A DNA stretch of 64,000 nucleotides from Opitutia bacterium (GTDB lineage: Bacteria > Verrucomicrobiota > Verrucomicrobiia > Opitutales > Opitutaceae): positions 930,001-994,000 of the forward strand of contig JACRHT010000017.1 of the NCBI GenBank assembly GCA_016217545.1, read 5' to 3'. Under the pieces are notes generated by a model, which was not told the DNA's origin, ran no database searches, and saw nothing but the letters and a program-made list of their open reading frames with translations. Positions 41,177 through 49,614 of the stretch are shown here, piece after piece. Made by a program: the position numbers and the translations under genes. Numbering within the stretch: position 1 is the stretch's first letter; the number at the start of each line of letters is the position of its first letter.

Positions 41177-41306
41177 CGGCGCGGTTTGGGGAGACGGCGG
41201 GCGGCGATTACGCGAATTCGCGAAAATCCCGCGGCACTTGGCCGGTCGGCTAAGACGCCGTGTAAAAGCTGAAATGCCCGCCGGCCCCACCCGGGAATCC
41301 GTCGCG

Positions 41307-44300
41307 ATGAAACACACTGACACTGCTCCACGCATCACGGTGTGGCTCGCGCTCCTCGCGACCTGCACCGTATTCCTCGCCTTCGCGCGTCCGCTGCTCG
41401 CAGCGACGCAGCCCTTCCAACCGTCGATCACCGCGCCGGCCAACAAATCCACCGTCGCCACCGGCACTCCGGTCACGATCTCCGCGACTGTCTCGGGCAA
41501 CGCCAACCCGATCGCCAAGGTCGAGTTCTTCAACCTCCAGCTCGGCCAGCTCATCGGCACCGCCACCGCCGCGCCGTTCTCCGTCTCGTGGACGCCCACC
41601 GCGACCGGCAACGTCTTCCTCCGCGTCACGGCCTACGACACCGCTGGCCAGAAGGCCAACTCCGCCATCACCACCGTCACGGTCGTCGCCGGCACGGCCA
41701 CTCCGCCGCCCGCCGCGAGCTACACGCTCACCGTCGTCAACGGCACCGTGAACGGCGCCGCCGCCACCTCGCTCACCGCCGGCAGCACCGCGACCGTCGT
41801 CGCCGCCGCCGCGCCCGCGGGCCAGTCGTTCAAGAACTGGAGTGGCAACGTCGCCTTCGCCAACGCGAGCGCCGCCACCACCACGTTCCCCATGCCCGCG
41901 ACGGCCACCACCGTCACCGCGAACTACCAGGCCGCCACCACGCCGCCACCACCCGCCGCCGCGCCGCTCACGATCTCCTCCGCCGCCACGCTGCCCAACG
42001 CCACCGGCGGCACCACCTACTCGCACCAGCTCTCCGCCACCGGCGGCACCGCGCCCTACTCGTGGAAAATCCTCGGCGGCTCGCTCGAGTCCGGCCTCTC
42101 GCTCTCCACCTCCGGCCTGATCTCCGGCACCGTCGGCACCTCGCCGTGGATTTATTCCTATCCGTTCTCCGCCTACGTCAGCGTCACCGATTCCGTCGGC
42201 GCCAGCGCCACCGGCACGATCAAACTCACCATCGACGCGCCCGCCGGCTACACCCCGCCGACCACGCAGCCTCCCGGCGGTGGCACGCCGCAGCAGTCTG
42301 TCTACACCGTCACCGTCACGAACGGCACGGCCAACGGCGCCGCCACGATCACCGCCGCGCCCTACACGACCGTCACGCTCGCCGCCGGCACTCCGCCCGC
42401 CGGCCAAGCCTTCAAGCAGTGGAGCGGCTCCGTCGCGTTCGCCGACGCGCTCGCGAGCACCACGACGTTCCAGATGCCGAACTCCAACGTCGCGATCACC
42501 GCCACGTTCCACACGCCGAAGCCCATCCCCGCCACCGTCGCCGGCCACCCGCGTCTCTGGCTCAACACGAGCGACCTCCCGCGTCTCCGCTCCTGGGCAC
42601 ACGCCGGCAATCCGATCTGGCAACAGGCCCTGCGCACCAATCTCCAGCTCGCGCTCCACGTCCACACGCTCTGCTTCCCGAACGGCCAGCCCGCCAATCC
42701 GTATCCGGATTCCGGCAACATCGACGGCTACGCCGGCCCCAACGTCACCAGCGACATGGTGAGCGAGCAGCACGCGCTCGTCCTCGCCTTCCACGCGCTC
42801 GTCGATCCCGACGCCAACGCCCGCCTCCTCTACGCGCAGAAGGCGCGCGACCTGTTCATGTATATCATGAACGAGGCAGCCAAACCGCACCTCAAGGGCG
42901 CGCCGTTCCGCGATCCGATTTTCTCGATTTTCAACCGCTCCAACTCCGCCGGTGAAACCTGGCCGCTGCTCGCCGACTGGCTCCAAGGCGTGACCGACGC
43001 CGCCGGCTCGCCCGTCACGATCCTCACCGCCTCGGACAAGGCCGTCATCCGCCAAGTCTTCATGACGTGGGCCGAGGATTGCATCACCGCCTACACCACC
43101 GGCGGCGACTCTCCGAAACCCAACCGCGTCACGAACAGCCTGCAACTTCTCCCCGGCGGCCACGCCTACCGAATGACGGCGAACAATTACTACCTCAACC
43201 ACGCGCGCCTCATCACCATGATGCCGCTCGCCTTCGATCCGGTCGACGATCCCGCGCTCGACGCCTCGCTGCCCGACGCCGCGCTCGGCAACACGCTGCG
43301 CTCCTACCTCTCCAACGCCACCGGCGCGTGGCTCTACCAGCAGTTCGCGATGTTCGGCGATCCCGCCGAGGTGCGCGCCGCGCTGAATCTCCCCGCCACC
43401 GCCAAGGTCGGCCTCGCCTCCGGCGGCAACGCGCCCGAAGGCGGCCTCTACGGCCACTCCATCGCCTACATCCAGGGCCAGCTCCTCGCGATGCAGACCG
43501 CCGGCTTCACCGATCCCGCCTTCTGCGGCCCGCAAGTCAGCCTCGTCGGCTCGCCGCATTGGGACCGCTACGTGCACGGCTTCCTCTCGATGATGGTGCC
43601 GAAGCAGCAGATCGATCCCGCGCAATCCTACCTCGGGCCCGTGTATTCGTTCGCCAACTTCGGCGACCTGCTCCGCCTCTGGATCACGCCCGACAACATG
43701 ACGCAGTTCGCGCTGCTCGCGCTCGTCGAATTGAAGCAAGGCCGCAGCGACCACCTCAACGCCGCCCGCTGGATCGCGCTGAACGCCGTCGAGGGCGGCG
43801 CCTCCGGTTTCATCGAACGCCTCAAGCGCCCCTACAGCACGCACGAGCCGATCCTCGCGTTCATGCTCTTCGATCCCACCGACCCGACCGCGATGAATCC
43901 CGCCGATCCGCGCCCGGGCTACGCCACCACGCATTGGGACCCCGGCCTCGGCCGCATCCTCGCGCGCACCGACTGGTCACCCAACGCCACGTTCCTCGAC
44001 TTCCGCTCCGGCTGGCTCTCGATCAACCACCAGAACTGCGACGGCGGCCAGTTTCAGTTCTACCGCAAAGGCGAGTGGCTCACCAAGGAGTTCTCCAACT
44101 ACGACAACTACGGCGTCGGCCAGTCCACGATCTGGCACAACACGCTCTCGCTCCAGAACTGGTGCGCCTCCGGCGATCCCTTCATTCAGTGGTATGAGCG
44201 CCCGTATCTGAAATACGGCTCGCAGTGGAACATGCACCAGAGCAGCGGCGACCCGATCACCACCGCCAGCTCCGGCCCCGGCTACACGCACGCTCAGACC

Positions 44301-45017
44301 GATCTGACCGCGCTCTACAACCGCCCCAATCAATTCGCGCCGGCCGACGCGCTTCTCGACATCTCGCACGCCAGCCGCTCACTCCTCTGGCTCCAGCCCG
44401 ACGTCGTGGTCGTCTACGACCGCGCCTCGTCGGTCCACAACGGCTTCAAGCGCTTCAACCTCACGCTCACCGCCACGCCGACGCTCGACGCCGCGAATCG
44501 CCGCGCCACCGTCGTCACGCCGCGCGGCCAGTATCTCTTCGTGCACTCGCTCCTCCCGGCGAACGGCACGATGACCTACATCGCCGAGGACGGCACGCTC
44601 ACCAACGTCGCGCAACTCGAGCCGTCGAAGGGCCGCCTCGTCGTCGAGGACACCACGAACCCGACGAGCACGCGCTTCCTCCACGTCCTCCAAGGCGCCG
44701 ACGCCGCCTCCGCGCAACTCACGCCCACGCTGCTCGCCAGCACCGCAGGCGACCCCTTCGCCGGCGCGATCGTCGGCAACCAAGTCGCGCTCTTCGCCGT
44801 AAACTACGGCGCCACGACCAACGGCACCGCCTACAGCGCGCCGCTCACCACGACGAAGCATCACCTCAGCGGCTTCGCCCCCGGTGCGCGCTACAGCGTC
44901 ATCGCCGTCCAAAACGGCGCCAACGCCAACATCGTCGTCCAGCCCAGCGCCACCGGCGCCTTCACCGCCGACGCCTCCGGCCTGCTCGTCTTCGACCTCA
45001 GCGCCGCGCTGCAGTGA
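41307..45017 (+). CDS. Secreted multidomain heparinase II/III-like polysaccharide lyase candidate
   Basis: A 1236-residue exported protein. Order: signal peptide; Ig-like domain (about 40-125, ANKSTVATGTPVTISATVSG); InlB B-type repeat (about 140-205, LTVVNGTVNGAAAT); putative Ig/cadherin-like domain (about 215-305, LTISSAATLPNATGGTTYSH); second InlB-type repeat (about 330-400); then an alpha/alpha-toroid catalytic-type region from about 412 (GHPRLWLNTSDLPRLRSWA) and a beta-sandwich C-terminus (FLDFRSGWLSINHQNCDGGQ, FSNYDNYGVGQSTIWHNTLS). The latter half resembles heparinase II/III and alginate-lyase-like enzymes, with His/Tyr/Asn residues available for catalysis. The polysaccharide substrate is unknown. 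No PEP-CTERM tail. Confidence 0.8.
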   Translation: MKHTDTAPRITVWLALLATCTVFLAFARPLLAATQPFQPSITAPANKSTVATGTPVTISATVSGNANPIAKVEFFNLQLGQLIGTATAAPFSVSWTPTATGNVFLRVTAYDTAGQKANSAITTVTVVAGTATPPPAASYTLTVVNGTVNGAAATSLTAGSTATVVAAAAPAGQSFKNWSGNVAFANASAATTTFPMPATATTVTANYQAATTPPPPAAAPLTISSAATLPNATGGTTYSHQLSATGGTAPYSWKILGGSLESGLSLSTSGLISGTVGTSPWIYSYPFSAYVSVTDSVGASATGTIKLTIDAPAGYTPPTTQPPGGGTPQQSVYTVTVTNGTANGAATITAAPYTTVTLAAGTPPAGQAFKQWSGSVAFADALASTTTFQMPNSNVAITATFHTPKPIPATVAGHPRLWLNTSDLPRLRSWAHAGNPIWQQALRTNLQLALHVHTLCFPNGQPANPYPDSGNIDGYAGPNVTSDMVSEQHALVLAFHALVDPDANARLLYAQKARDLFMYIMNEAAKPHLKGAPFRDPIFSIFNRSNSAGETWPLLADWLQGVTDAAGSPVTILTASDKAVIRQVFMTWAEDCITAYTTGGDSPKPNRVTNSLQLLPGGHAYRMTANNYYLNHARLITMMPLAFDPVDDPALDASLPDAALGNTLRSYLSNATGAWLYQQFAMFGDPAEVRAALNLPATAKVGLASGGNAPEGGLYGHSIAYIQGQLLAMQTAGFTDPAFCGPQVSLVGSPHWDRYVHGFLSMMVPKQQIDPAQSYLGPVYSFANFGDLLRLWITPDNMTQFALLALVELKQGRSDHLNAARWIALNAVEGGASGFIERLKRPYSTHEPILAFMLFDPTDPTAMNPADPRPGYATTHWDPGLGRILARTDWSPNATFLDFRSGWLSINHQNCDGGQFQFYRKGEWLTKEFSNYDNYGVGQSTIWHNTLSLQNWCASGDPFIQWYERPYLKYGSQWNMHQSSGDPITTASSGPGYTHAQTDLTALYNRPNQFAPADALLDISHASRSLLWLQPDVVVVYDRASSVHNGFKRFNLTLTATPTLDAANRRATVVTPRGQYLFVHSLLPANGTMTYIAEDGTLTNVAQLEPSKGRLVVEDTTNPTSTRFLHVLQGADAASAQLTPTLLASTAGDPFAGAIVGNQVALFAVNYGATTNGTAYSAPLTTTKHHLSGFAPGARYSVIAVQNGANANIVVQPSATGAFTADASGLLVFDLSAALQ

Positions 45018-45023
45018 TCCCGC

Positions 45024-45048
45024 ACGAGTAACCTAATAGGTTACTCGT
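45024..45048. promoter_or_regulatory. Operator-like palindrome, site 1
   Basis: A perfect 12-1-12 palindrome: arms ACGAGTAACCTA and TAGGTTACTCGT around one A, 6 bases after the heparinase-like stop. A one-base centre argues for a protein-binding site rather than an RNA hairpin. Core GTAACCTAATAGGTTAC. Confidence 0.75.
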
Positions 45049-45067
45049 CCCTCACAGCCCTCATTGG

Positions 45068-45090
45068 ATGATCACCTAACAAGTGACCAT
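45068..45090. promoter_or_regulatory. Operator-like palindrome, site 2 (degenerate)
   Basis: ATGATCACCTA A CAAGTGACCAT: 8 of 11 arm positions are complementary. It keeps the TCACCTA half of site 4 and lies 43 bases (centre to centre) from site 1. Confidence 0.55.
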
Positions 45091-45099
45091 CGCTCACCA

Positions 45100-45133
45100 C
45101 CGCCGGCACCGAAAAGTGCCGGCGGTTTTTTTT
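45100..45133 (+). terminator. Strong intrinsic terminator after the heparinase-like gene
   Basis: Stem CCGCCGGCAC (45100-45109) / GTGCCGGCGG (45116-45125), loop CGAAAA, then eight T. Confidence 0.93.
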
Positions 45134-45195
45134 CGGAGTATTTCCGTCGTCACCGCCCACGGAGCCCGCCGCGCGGCTCAGCGCCGCTTCCCGGA

Positions 45196-45220
45196 AAGTG
45201 TAACCTAATAGGTTACACTT
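45196..45220. promoter_or_regulatory. Operator-like palindrome, site 3
   Basis: A perfect 12-1-12 palindrome: arms AAGTGTAACCTA and TAGGTTACACTT around one A. It has the same 17-base core GTAACCTAATAGGTTAC as site 1 but different flanks, so the core is what is conserved. Confidence 0.75.
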
Positions 45221-45266
45221 CTCCGGCGCCGCGCACTCGCACATCACGGTCCGCCCCTGCGCACGT

Positions 45267-45285
45267 TGTCACCTACTAGGTGACA
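45267..45285. promoter_or_regulatory. Operator-like palindrome, site 4
   Basis: A perfect 9-1-9 palindrome TGTCACCTA C TAGGTGACA. Relative to sites 1 and 3 the fourth arm base changes symmetrically (GTCACCTA against GTAACCTA), keeping dyad symmetry, as expected for a dimer-binding site. Confidence 0.72.
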
Positions 45286-45331
45286 GTCCCACCACCACTC
45301 AGTCGCATCACTTACTCCGCCCGACCCGCTT

Positions 45332-45376
45332 CGCCGCCGACGCCTCTCCCGCGTCGGCGGCGATTTTTCTGTTTTT
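45332..45376 (+). terminator. Strong intrinsic terminator upstream of the PEP-CTERM gene
   Basis: A perfect 12-bp stem CGCCGCCGACGC (45332-45343) / GCGTCGGCGGCG (45351-45362), then ATTTTTCTGTTTTTC. It lies between operator site 4 and the ATG at 45420, so transcription started at sites 3-4 would end here unless antiterminated. Confidence 0.85.
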
Positions 45377-45419
45377 CTGCAATCGCCCGCCCGCGTTTCC
45401 CCAATCCTCCCGATTCTTC

Positions 45420-46202
45420 ATGCGCACTCTTCTCCACGCCCGCGCGACGCACTCGCGGATCGCGCCCACTCGCTCTTCCTTTCTCGCCGTCGTCGCATTC
45501 GGCGTGTCGCTCGTCTGCGCCTCGTCAGTCTCGGCACAGACCATTCTCACCGGCGAACTGCTCACCAATCCCGGCGCCGAGTCCAACCTCACTGGATGGA
45601 CGATCACCAGCGGCGTCGGCTACCTGGCCGACGCCGGCACCTATGATCCCGGCTACAACCCGCACAGCGGAACGCGCCAATTCGTCGCCGGTGCCGCACC
45701 CGGCGCTTCCGGCACGCTCGGCCAACTCGTGAATCTCACGTCCCTCTCCTCCGTCATCCTAGACCGCATCGACGCCGGACTGGTCTCAGCCGACGTCTCG
45801 CTTTGGTATAACATCTACTATCAAGGCGGCCTGCCCGACTACCTCCACGTCACGCTTACCTTTCAGGACGCCTCCTCCAACTCGCTCGGCACCGCCACCA
45901 CGGCCGATCTGAATTCCAGTTACTCCGGCGGCTCGCTCTGGAACTACTACTCCGACTCTTTCGCCGTGCCGGTCGGCACGCGCGCCATCACCTACACGAT
46001 CGTCTCCCAGCGCGGCGCCAACGGCGGCTCCTACATCGACGCGTTCTCCGACGATCACAGCCTCGTCCTCTCCACCGTGCCCGAACCCGCATCATCCGCC
46101 CTCGTTGGCGGGCTGCTGGTCTGCATCGCGGCGCTAATTGTCCTCCGCCGTCGCACCGCCGGCCAGCCCCATGGCCCTCCTCCGCGCCCGGTTATCCCTT
46201 GA
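45420..46202 (+). CDS. PEP-CTERM surface protein, jelly-roll type
   Basis: A 260-residue exported protein. The leader (SFLAVVAFGVSLVCASSVSAQ after a long basic start) is followed by a carbohydrate-binding-module-like beta sandwich: LLTNPGAESNLTGWTITSG, YNPHSGTRQFVAG, VSLWYNIYYQGGLPDYLHVT and DAFSDDHSLVL. The tail STVPEPASSALVGGLLVCIA ... VLRRR is a PEP-CTERM signal, with 16 extra residues after the Arg cluster. A terminator 47 bases upstream and the palindrome array suggest regulated expression. Confidence 0.82.
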   Translation: MRTLLHARATHSRIAPTRSSFLAVVAFGVSLVCASSVSAQTILTGELLTNPGAESNLTGWTITSGVGYLADAGTYDPGYNPHSGTRQFVAGAAPGASGTLGQLVNLTSLSSVILDRIDAGLVSADVSLWYNIYYQGGLPDYLHVTLTFQDASSNSLGTATTADLNSSYSGGSLWNYYSDSFAVPVGTRAITYTIVSQRGANGGSYIDAFSDDHSLVLSTVPEPASSALVGGLLVCIAALIVLRRRTAGQPHGPPPRPVIP

Positions 46203-46260: not shown

Positions 46261-47016
46261 ATGACTGATAACGCGCCCCGCCCCACGCCGCCGCCCGACA
46301 CCGAGGCCGGCGCCCCGTTCGCGCCCACACAGTGGAGCGTGATCCTGCAGGCGCGTCGCGACTCCACCAATCGCCGCTCCGCGCTCGAGCAACTCTGCGC
46401 CAGTTACTGGCTGCCGATCTACGGTTACCTCCGCCGCCGCGGCCACTCGCCCGCCGACGCCGAGGATCTCACGCAGAACTTCTTCGTCTACCTCCTCGAC
46501 GGCGATTTTCTCGACCGCCCCGATCCGGCCAAAGGTCGCTTCCGCGGCTACCTCGTCGGCGCGCTGCGGCATTTCCTCAGCGAACACTTCGAGCGCGCCT
46601 CGGCGCAAAAACGCGGCGGCCGCGCGCAATTCATCGACTGGGCCTCCGTCGACGCCGAACGCGAACTCGCCACCGTCGACCAGCCCGCCGCCGACCCGAG
46701 CAGCGTGTTCGAACGCAGCTGGGCGCTCACCCTGCTCGCCCGCGCCCTGCGCAAACTCGAGGACGAGCAATCCACGCCCGCGCGCCGCGAGCAGTTCGCC
46801 GTGCTCAAAGCCTTCCTCAGCGCCGCGCCCAGCCCCGGCGACTACGACCGCGCCGCCGCCGCACTCGGCACCACGCGCACCAACGTCGCCGTGTGGGTCC
46901 ACCGCCTCAATCAACGCTACGCCGAACTCGTGAAACTCGAGGTCGCCGCCACCGTCAGCGACCCGACCGAAGTGCGCGCCGAAATGCAGCACCTCCTCCA
47001 AGCCCTCCGCGCCTGA
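46261..47016 (+). CDS. ECF-type RNA polymerase sigma factor
   Basis: A 251-residue sigma factor. Region 2: ALEQLCASYWLPIYGYLRRR and DAEDLTQNFFVYLLDGDFL (about residues 42-85), then GRFRGYLVGALRHFLSEHFE (region 2.4-like). Region 4 is near 180-230 with ATTRTNVAVWVHRLNQRY-type recognition (DRAAAALGTTRTNVAVWVHR). Longer than classic ECFs because of a linker of about 50 residues, as in the large Planctomycetes/Verrucomicrobia group linked to Ser/Thr kinases. The kinase gene follows after 57 bases, so kinase-controlled sigma activity is likely. The ATG at 46261 follows the family N-terminus FAPTQWSVIL closely. Confidence 0.87.
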   Translation: MTDNAPRPTPPPDTEAGAPFAPTQWSVILQARRDSTNRRSALEQLCASYWLPIYGYLRRRGHSPADAEDLTQNFFVYLLDGDFLDRPDPAKGRFRGYLVGALRHFLSEHFERASAQKRGGRAQFIDWASVDAERELATVDQPAADPSSVFERSWALTLLARALRKLEDEQSTPARREQFAVLKAFLSAAPSPGDYDRAAAALGTTRTNVAVWVHRLNQRYAELVKLEVAATVSDPTEVRAEMQHLLQALRA

Positions 47017-47073
47017 TCAATCGTTCCTCTTTCTCGCAATCGTTCTCGTTCTCCCGCTCGCGCCGCACCGGCC

Positions 47074-49614
47074 ATGCCCAGCGTTTCCGCCCAACCGTTC
47101 TTCAACATCTGCCCGTCCTGCGGCGGCTCCACCGCGCACCCGTTCGCCGTCGGCGGCGTGTGCCTGCGCTGCGCAGGCTTGCGCGCGCTCGCTGGCGAGG
47201 ATTTCGCGCTCACCCCGCCACTCGAAGAACCCGCGGACAACCGCCCCGGCGGACTCCGCCGCATCGGCGCCTACGAGATCATCGACGACATCGGCCGCGG
47301 CGGCATGGGCCGCGTCTACGCCGCGCGCCAGAGCGCCCTCGGCCGTATCGTCGCGCTGAAAGCCCTGCCCGACACCGGCAGCGCCGCCGGCCCCGAACTC
47401 CGTTTCCTCCGCGAAGCCCAAACCGCCGCGCGCCTCCGCCATCCGCACATCGTCGCGGTGCACGACTCCGGCCGCGCCGACGGCCACGTGTTCTTCACGA
47501 TGGACTACGTCGAAGGCGGCGATCTCGCGCAACGCCTCCGCCGCGGTCCGCTCGCGCCGCGCGACGCCGCCAGCCTGCTCCATAAAATTTCCGGCGCGCT
47601 CGCCTACACGCACGGCGAAGGCGTCCTCCACCGCGACCTCAAGCCCTCCAACATCCTCCTCGACGGCGACGAGCCGCGCCTCGCCGACTTCGGCCTCGCC
47701 GCCGAACTCGAGCCGGGCGGCGACCTCACCGCCGTCACGGGCGTCCTCGGCACCCCGCACTACCTCGCCCCCGAAGCCATCCGCGGCGGCAGCGGCGCCG
47801 TCACCGCCGCGAGCGATCTCTACGCCCTCGGCGTCATCGCCTACGAAATGCTCGCCGGCCGCACGCCGTTCGCGGGCGCGAGCGCGGCCACGCTCCCGCA
47901 GCTCGTCGAGCAACGTCCCCCGCCTTCGCTCCGCTACCTCGCGCCCGCGACGCCACCCGAGCTCGAGACCATCACGCTCAAACTCCTCGAACGCGAACCC
48001 GAGCGCCGCTACGCCAGCGCCGCCGCGCTCGCGGAGGACTTGCGCCGCTTCTTGGCCGGCGAGCCGATCCTCGCCCAACCGCCCGGCGCATGGACGCGCT
48101 TCGCCCGCTACGCCCGCCGCCACCGCGTCGCCTTCGGCATCGGCGCCGCGTTCGTCACCGTGCTGCTCGCCGCCACGATCATCAGCTCGTCGCTCGCTGT
48201 CCGCGCGCGCCACGCCGAACGCGCCGCCCGCACCGAAGCGCAGACCAGTCGCGCCCTCGCCGACTTTCTCCAGAACGATCTCCTCGCCCAGGCCGCGCCC
48301 ACTGAGCAACCCGACCGCGATCTCAAACTCCGCACGGTCCTCGACCGCGCCGCCGCCCGCCTCGAATCCCGCTTTGCCGATCAGCCACTCGTGAAGGCCG
48401 ACGTGCACAACATGATCGGACACGTTTACGACTCGCTCGGCGAGTATCCGCAAGCGCTCCCGCACATCGAACAGGCCTGGAAAATCCGCGTCGCGCAACT
48501 CGGCTCCGACGCCCCGCTCACGCTCATCTCCGCCCGCCAAGTCGCCGGCGAACTCACCAACCTCGGCCGCTCCGCCGACGCCGAACGCCTCCACCGCGCC
48601 ACCTTCGAACGCACCCGCAAGCTCCTCGGTCGCGAGCATCCCGACACGCTCGCCGCCGCCGACGGCCTCGCCGCAAACCTCCGCGACCTCGGCCGCCTCG
48701 CCGAGGCAGAGACGCTCATCGTCGAAAACGTTGCACTCTCGCGCCAAGTCTTCGGCGCCCAAAGCCCCGACCGTTTCTTCGGCCTCAGTATCCTCGGCAG
48801 CCTGCGCAACCAACAGTCACGTTTCGCCGAAGCCGAGGCGACCTTCCGCGAAGCCGCCGAAATCGAAACCGCCGCCCACGGCCCCGATCACCCCGACACG
48901 ATCACCGCCTGGAACAACGTCGCCCTCGCGTGCCGCGATCAGGGCAAATTCGCGGAGGCCGCCGAGATCAACGAGCGCATCCTCGCCTTCCGCCGCCGCG
49001 TCCTCGGCCCCGATCACCACGACACCCTCGTCACGACCAACAACCTCAGCGGCGTCTATAAAGCGCTCGGCCGTCTCGCCGACGCCGAGCGTCTCCAGCT
49101 CACCGCCGTCGAGATCGCCCGCCGCACGCTCGGGGACCGCCACATGGAAACGCTCGTCTTCATGGGCAATCTCGCCGACACCTACCGCCGCGAAAACAAA
49201 CTCGCCGAAGCGAGCGCCCTCACCCGCGAAACGCTCGAACTCCGCCGCACCGCGCTCGGCTCCACCCATCCGCACACCCTCGCCGCTCTGTTTCAACTCG
49301 GCGACCTGCTCCTCCGGCAAAATCAACCCGCCGCCGCCGAGCCCGTCCTCCGCGAATCGCTCGACGCTCAACTCCGCGCCGACTCCTCCAGCTGGGTGAC
49401 CGCCGCCGCCCGCGCGCAACTCGGCACCGCGCTCGCGCGCCTCGGCCGTTTTACTGAAGCCGAGCCGTTGCTGCTCGAAGGCCACCGCGCCCTCGCCGCC
49501 AACCTCGAACGCATTCCCGCTCTCCGCCGCAGCATCGTCCAGGAAACGCGCGAGCACCTCGCGGAACTCTACACCGCGTGGGCCAAGCCCGACCGCGCCG
49601 CCGAGTTCAAGTAA
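47074..49614 (+). CDS. Ser/Thr protein kinase with TPR sensor region
   Basis: An 846-residue membrane kinase. N-terminal zinc-ribbon-like CPSCGGS ... CLRCAG (about residues 12-35). Pkn2-type kinase domain at about 65-325: GRGGMGRVYAAR (Gly loop), IVALKAL (Lys), HRDLKPSNILL (catalytic loop), DFGLA, GTPHYLAPEA. A transmembrane helix at about 352-375 (AFGIGAAFVTVLLAATIISSS). The outer part, to residue 846, holds about eight kinesin-light-chain-like TPRs (LGREHPDTLAAADGLA, LGPDHHDTLVTTNNLS, LGSTHPHTLAALFQLG). The pairing with an ECF sigma gene upstream is common in this phylum and suggests phosphorylation-controlled transcription. Confidence 0.94.
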   Translation: MPSVSAQPFFNICPSCGGSTAHPFAVGGVCLRCAGLRALAGEDFALTPPLEEPADNRPGGLRRIGAYEIIDDIGRGGMGRVYAARQSALGRIVALKALPDTGSAAGPELRFLREAQTAARLRHPHIVAVHDSGRADGHVFFTMDYVEGGDLAQRLRRGPLAPRDAASLLHKISGALAYTHGEGVLHRDLKPSNILLDGDEPRLADFGLAAELEPGGDLTAVTGVLGTPHYLAPEAIRGGSGAVTAASDLYALGVIAYEMLAGRTPFAGASAATLPQLVEQRPPPSLRYLAPATPPELETITLKLLEREPERRYASAAALAEDLRRFLAGEPILAQPPGAWTRFARYARRHRVAFGIGAAFVTVLLAATIISSSLAVRARHAERAARTEAQTSRALADFLQNDLLAQAAPTEQPDRDLKLRTVLDRAAARLESRFADQPLVKADVHNMIGHVYDSLGEYPQALPHIEQAWKIRVAQLGSDAPLTLISARQVAGELTNLGRSADAERLHRATFERTRKLLGREHPDTLAAADGLAANLRDLGRLAEAETLIVENVALSRQVFGAQSPDRFFGLSILGSLRNQQSRFAEAEATFREAAEIETAAHGPDHPDTITAWNNVALACRDQGKFAEAAEINERILAFRRRVLGPDHHDTLVTTNNLSGVYKALGRLADAERLQLTAVEIARRTLGDRHMETLVFMGNLADTYRRENKLAEASALTRETLELRRTALGSTHPHTLAALFQLGDLLLRQNQPAAAEPVLRESLDAQLRADSSSWVTAAARAQLGTALARLGRFTEAEPLLLEGHRALAANLERIPALRRSIVQETREHLAELYTAWAKPDRAAEFK

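Follow-up and report, generated by a model that had tools for sequence, protein, structure and literature searches.

What, if anything, do four clustered palindromes accomplish in the space between two forward-strand genes of an Opitutaceae bacterium? The window analyzed here is a 64-kb stretch of this 5.09-Mb genome (contig C17, positions 930001-994000). In the original prediction, the palindromes were viewed as sites for a dimeric DNA-binding protein, with two of them located on a segment that could carry a short regulated RNA or an attenuated leader of the downstream gene. We consider it probable (roughly three chances in four) that the four palindromes are instead two copies, here called pairs A and B, of a dispersed, non-autonomous, REP/REPIN-like family of palindromic repeats in Opitutaceae. 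This reading builds on copy number, pairing, discrete spacings, symmetric covariation, a preference for 3′ ends and convergent spaces, in-frame copies in proteins with loop-free orthologs, and a patchy distribution. The repeats look selfish or structural rather than like switches for a neighboring gene, and the gene at 45420 is probably not regulated by them.

Palindromes and terminators in the window

A scan of the 64 kb, with symmetric extension of each match, recovered three exact copies of a 17-bp core and a degenerate fourth copy where the palindromes had originally been placed. These four are the only core matches with three or fewer mismatches, of which 0.18 would be expected, and none of 100 shuffles reached four. 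Both terminators also emerged from a scan, and the joint change from GTAAC to GTCAC on the two sides of palindrome 4 is present. The features of the region, in window coordinates, are as follows.

41274..45017, + strand: upstream gene (gene call) with InlB B-repeat-like and bacterial Ig-like domains (PF18998, PF17957)
45024..45048, no strand: palindrome 1, 25 bp, exact core (45028-45044) plus four symmetric flank pairs; left arm of pair A
about 45067..45091, no strand: palindrome 2, degenerate, core (45071-45087) with three mismatches; right arm of pair A
45099..45134, + strand: intrinsic terminator 1, 11-pair stem (45099-45126) then a T run; behind the upstream gene
45196..45220, no strand: palindrome 3, 25 bp, exact core (45200-45216) plus four symmetric flank pairs; left arm of pair B
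45267..45285, no strand: palindrome 4, 19 bp, exact core (45268-45284) with the C-G variant at position 3; right arm of pair B
45331..45368, + strand: intrinsic terminator 2, 13-pair stem (45331-45363) then T5; ahead of the gene at 45420
45420..46202, + strand: downstream gene (open reading frame), PEP-CTERM-like according to the original prediction

Pair A (45024-45091) lies directly behind the stop codon of the upstream gene. Its arms, one of them decayed, are 43 bp apart, and those of pair B (45196-45285) are 68 bp apart. The center bases are A/A and A/C, respectively, and thus the pairs are not clearly inverted. The one-base centers had been thought to disfavor RNA hairpins, which proved wrong: perfect palindromes 1, 3, and 4 form stems of 11, 14, and 9 pairs with 3-nt loops and fold far better than shuffled sequences (z -5.5, -6.8, and -3.2). 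The degenerate palindrome 2 folds weakly (z -2.5), and the terminators at 45099..45134 and 45331..45368 score z -4.3 and -6.2. The PEP-CTERM label of the downstream gene was not confirmed, as a Pfam search with its protein returned no family at E 0.01. Just downstream of this gene, a sigma-70 region 2 protein and then a Ser/Thr kinase with TPR repeats are encoded (46261-49614).

Dispersed repeats with discrete spacings

The source genome carries 53 exact copies of the core, GTNACCTANTAGGTNAC, and none of the reversed pattern. The motif is therefore non-random genome-wide, in agreement with the original prediction. Allowing C/T and A/G at two of its positions raises the number of cores to 63. 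About half of the 39 loci are pairs (21 pairs within 75 bp), and 14 of these 21 pairs have opposite center bases, which corresponds to the arrangement of two inverted REPs and a spacer that defines a REPIN.

The distance between paired palindromes falls into separate classes. Among 54 pairs at 40-70 bp in the source genome and its relatives G007, G006, and G001, the spacings are 43-46 bp (7 pairs), 52-55 bp (24), or 65-68 bp (23), with none between, and the pairs of G002 and G012 are spaced at 65-69 bp. The string CACTC (or GAGTG in the other orientation) is present at the same spacer offset in nine of the 13 pairs of exactly 66 bp, although the nine are not independent because some are orthologous copies, and it is absent from that offset in 10 pairs at 65, 67, or 68 bp. 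We propose that the unit is a hairpin, GT[AC]ACC-TANTA-GGT[TG]AC, which would occur singly or as two hairpins 43-46, 52-55, or 65-69 bp apart, often inverted and with a partly conserved spacer. In pairs of 66 bp, for example those at L009, L010, L031, and L115, the spacer repeatedly has TTTTCACTC or its complement GAGTGAAAA at the same offset, and the 66-bp pair therefore seems to be inherited as one unit.

Two other descriptions of the element were tried and rejected. One was an uptake sequence or similar half-site. The half-site TAGGTTAC occurs 49/46 times in G000 (reversed control 12/20) and 39/41 times in G007 (13/20), versus 2/4 in G004, which has no core and where the reversed control gives 8/24. 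Because the half-sites among the matches listed are mostly inside palindromes, the palindrome is the unit. The other was an autonomous element with recurrent neighbor genes, since only weak similarities (22-45% identity) recur beside the sites of the source genome.

Copies are also unevenly spread, being dense beyond 1.88 Mb of contig C1 of G007 and on contig C12 of the source genome, with none in the first 0.8 Mb of its contig C17. Post hoc tests gave a KS p of 0.0007 for C1 of G007 and placed 17 of 38 loci of the source genome on C12, where 9.2 would be expected. GC skew, calculated for the window and for 20 sampled stretches, gave no clear position for the origin and terminus.

Arms and flanks covary as in hairpins

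Among 58 cores of the source genome, position 3 is A-T in 42, C-G in 10, and mixed in only six, compared with 20.2 mixed cores expected if the two sides were independent. Mixed cores are absent among the 43 of G007 and the 32 of G006. Symmetry extends beyond the core: at flank positions 1, 2, and 3, pairing exceeds that of within-genome shuffles for the source genome (z 5.8, 3.2, and 4.3) and for G007 (z 7.2, 5.0, and 3.0); the corresponding values for G006 (z 4.3, 3.5, and 1.9) leave position 3 less clear. Furthermore, some orthologous single sites exhibit paired changes (L016/L085, L026/L096, and L032/L076). Flanks have been wholly replaced at the orthologous sites L021/L092 and L028/L097, and are identical at L024/L093. 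Cross-pairing of two palindromes as the main structure was rejected, because flank complementarity is stronger within palindromes (z 6.2 and 7.7) than across a pair (z 2.5 and 1.5) when compared with a shuffle that mixes genomes.

This covariation of arms and flanks fits a hairpin, and a dimeric protein is therefore not the only possible source of symmetric change. Even without selection, the same pattern could arise from template switching within palindromes. The original prediction attributed the symmetry to selection on a dimeric protein. The dyad is indeed kept and its halves do change together, but a hairpin-forming repeat fits at least as well because the joint change reaches into the flanks. 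Thus, when the two arms of a palindrome change together, this alone does not prove that a dimeric regulator is at work.

Preference for convergent spaces and gene ends

Placement was judged with the gene caller of this analysis against a background of 456 kb, of which 88% is coding sequence. Seven of the 39 loci in the source genome are inside genes, and 18 are in co-directional spaces, the arrangement of 158 of the 251 background intergenic spaces. Convergent spaces hold 12 of the 32 intergenic loci versus 36 of the 251 background spaces (excess p 0.004), and divergent spaces hold only two versus 57 (deficit p 0.036), which is not the placement upstream of genes that operators would have. Pooling the source genome with G007 and G006 gave p values of 0.0001 and 0.0009, respectively, with the orthologous loci in this pool not being independent. 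In-gene loci are likewise common in G006 (8 of 18) and in G007 (11 of 31), where two are doubtful: L083 has a variant core and is possibly native sequence, and L109 may reflect a wrong start. The proposal of a local regulatory site or operator array for the gene at 45420 could not be upheld, given that copies adjoin unrelated genes, favor 3′ ends and convergent spaces, and in several cases lie in frame inside conserved proteins.

In-frame copies inside conserved proteins

The core has stop codons in two of three frames on either strand, and copies inside genes must therefore use the third. This sole open frame reads [CSG][NH][LP][IL]G[YD]. In the source genome, the hosts are a DinG/XPD-like helicase, a methyltransferase, a 3-beta-HSD-like dehydrogenase, a P-type ATPase, a methionyl-tRNA formyltransferase, an alpha-L-rhamnosidase, and a 550-aa protein. 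Carrier proteins are 63-93% identical overall to the protein of the source genome, and the loop differs in length and sequence.

For two hosts, the methyltransferase and the DinG-like helicase, the copies resemble Rickettsia palindromic elements (RPE) in that they are in frame in a conserved gene and absent from its orthologs. Among 23 methyltransferase sequences, the motif loop is present in the source genome, G007, G006, G008, and G012, whereas G002 and G003 each have a single arm that is clear. The loop is missing from ten sequences (G004, G005, G010, G014, G017, G018, G019, G021, and two distant ones, G020 and G024), four have inserts without a clear motif (G013, G015, G016, and G022), and those of G001 and G009 are incomplete. 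Among 21 helicase sequences, the motif is found in the source genome, G007, and G006 (one arm), while the proteins of G002, G003, G004, G008, G009, and G012 from the same genus are without it. At this loop, several other genera have linkers that differ in length and do not contain the motif, and the place is therefore tolerant of inserts anyway. In 9kqh, nothing aligns with the helicase loop. The formyltransferase has four extra residues relative to 5uai and two relative to 3tqq, which is weak evidence for an insertion.

Variants of the helicase loop, with NPIGY/NPLGD and HPIGD/NPIGD inserts, occur in G010 (L204) and G021 (L213), representing another genus and a core-free congener. Their sequences point to possible diverged relatives of the element.

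Patchy distribution among relatives

Core counts range from 0 to 42 among 38 relatives, compared with 53 in the source genome. From the class, 286 genomes were drawn and 15 match: 14 of the 30 in the same family, plus an outlier that has just one copy. With the reversed control, eight of the genomes have one match each. Of 150 genomes drawn from the family, 58 match, representing 23 of 40 genera, with 0-73 copies that vary in number within genera. Five of these 58 have a single copy, which is at noise level because the reversed control also gives one match in each of five family genomes. A scan of named genomes returned at least 120 stretches, and 78 of the 80 matches listed are from Opitutaceae or Verrucomicrobia, the others being one Chloroflexi MAG and one Chitinophaga.

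Sister species can share the place of a site while differing in its flank class, its spacer, and its spacing (single, 45, 54, or 66 bp), all of which have been replaced, even in protein loops. Because the sites of relatives were gathered with the same core pattern, core identity at orthologous sites is not used here as proof of constraint. At locus L015 of the source genome, the orthologous space of G007 has no core. In G006, locus L115 (C8:26000-28300) carries an array of five palindromes at 1009-1310 with spacings of 66, 99, 66, and 54 bp, whereas L031 of the source genome and L104 of G007 have one 66-bp pair.

Competing explanations

The core is far more constant than usual REP stems, which counts against the repeat family. 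A near-invariant 17-bp dyad core is in keeping with sites of a dimeric DNA-binding protein, either a local regulator or a chromosome-organizing protein whose sites act in helically phased pairs. Also in favor, the spacing classes are about one helical turn apart, orthologous places share sites (as gathered with the same pattern), and the chromosomal spread is uneven in the post hoc tests. The recurrence at the same place in sister species is something that a binding protein would also explain. However, such a protein does not readily account for the preference for 3′ ends, the scarcity of sites in divergent spaces, the copies within coding sequence, or copy numbers that range from 0 to 53 within the genus, with none in the complete genome G004. 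In addition, arms and flanks covary site by site, and independent half-sites need not do so. We therefore regard a binding protein as unlikely.

Much the same low standing applies to functions at the RNA level, such as 3′ UTR hairpins that would stabilize messages or terminate them, or else a small RNA or an attenuator in the segment that the terminators enclose (about 45134-45330). The 3′ location and the strong RNA folds are consistent with such functions, as are the two real terminators that frame pair B, and RNA hairpins would suit convergent genes because both strands give the same hairpin. However, the terminators in the window are separate from the palindromes, which have no T runs, and copies are also found in coding sequence. 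An Rfam search of 13 loci of the source genome and of 44900-45500 yielded only matches below the gathering score, and a scan of 44900-45500 for sigma-70-type consensus sites revealed no promoter-like site. The operator or attenuator reading lacks support.

If the palindromes are members of a repeat family, copies would spread as single-stranded hairpins via an enzyme acting in trans, and would survive where they do little harm, either behind genes or as protein loops in the single frame free of stops. Near-identical sequences revealed no insertion with clean ends between them, and so we infer movement rather than observe it. It is conceivable, if doubtful, that a candidate enzyme recognizes the GTNACCTANTAGGTNAC hairpin and rewrites copies in place by homing or conversion. 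In-place rewriting would explain why the core is kept while flanks, spacer, and spacing are replaced at the same places in sister species. The discrete spacings, the uneven spread, and the same-place sites with replaced flanks leave room for a binding protein or a rewriting enzyme of this kind.

Relation to known palindromic repeats

Opitutus terrae belongs to the same bacterial family as the source of the window. As described in PMC3733652, REPs with GTAG or CGTC tags form dimers mostly 20-100 bp apart, are placed mostly in convergent and co-directional spaces, and exhibit compensating stem variants; in-gene copies of GTAG REPs are most numerous in Opitutus terrae; and untagged REP-like families exist. 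The repeats described here resemble these REPs and REPINs in being short hairpins in tens of copies, often as dimers, with compensating stem variants (position 3 and the inner flanks), convergent or co-directional placement, and some copies inside open reading frames. They differ in that GTAG or CGTC tags are no more frequent than chance predicts, copies do not adjoin a RAYT gene, and the core hardly varies whereas the outer stem does. The in-gene copies are shared with the GTAG REPs of Opitutus terrae, which carry a GTAG (or GTGG) tag; the two are set apart here by description. The likeness to untagged REP-like families, palindromic repeats without a terminal tag, is likewise one of description only.

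RPE, according to PMC2229807, PMC10969869, and PMC3733652, are palindromic repeats of 105-146 bp that lie in frame inside conserved proteins. The Opitutaceae repeat is similar, by description, in adding extra peptides to conserved proteins, but it belongs to another phylum and its unit is shorter (17-25 bp, or about 60-110 bp as a pair). The family behaves like the REP/REPIN kind with RPE-like in-gene copies, yet it has neither the tag nor an adjoining RAYT gene. Literature searches, confined to text, for the core string, palindromic repeats of Opitutaceae, in-gene REPs of Opitutus terrae, and RAYTs of Verrucomicrobia found no description of this family. It adds a tag-free palindromic repeat that decorates proteins across many genera of free-living Opitutaceae. 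With related species at hand that do or do not carry the in-frame loop, the cost, the spread, and the missing mobilizing enzyme of coding palindromes become testable.

Candidate mobilizing enzymes

A GTAG or CGTC tag within 16 nt on either strand was found at 17 of 58 cores in the source genome (21.8 in shuffles), 11 of 43 in G007 (16.6), and 6 of 32 in G006 (12.1), and hence not above chance in any of the three. A RAYT gene as a neighbor of the palindromes was also rejected. None of 25 Y1_Tnp genes in G000, G001, G006, and G007 has an exact core nearby, and one has a match with two mismatches about 1.5 kb away. Conversely, the 223 palindrome loci (1.17 Mb) contain no Y1_Tnp open reading frame, where the density in the source genome predicts about two; the profile for this search was built from 37 of 49 control loci, which makes the control partly circular, and 11 further control loci were not seeds. 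Because this usual partner (Y1_Tnp/RAYT) is missing beside copies, we can only infer spread by a trans-acting enzyme.

A Y1 HUH transposase (RAYT-like) encoded elsewhere in the source genome and acting in trans is compatible with the repeat explanation and forms one version of it, which we hold tentatively, at about a one-in-four level of belief. In its favor, a search of the source genome gave 10 Y1_Tnp matches, and REPINs take the form of inverted hairpin pairs. On the other hand, the inverted repeats that flank Y1_Tnp genes in five of the seven loci examined start with GTAG or GTGG and differ from the core, the exact core is missing beside all of the genes noted above, and a long form in the source genome that matches profile positions 6-119 has no like among the matches of the core-rich G001, G006, and G007. 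Five RAYT-like genes of the source genome (L039-L043) have flanking GTAG/GTGG inverted repeats, each of a different sequence. Judging from these sequences, several classical REP/RAYT systems appear to coexist with the untagged palindrome in this genome.
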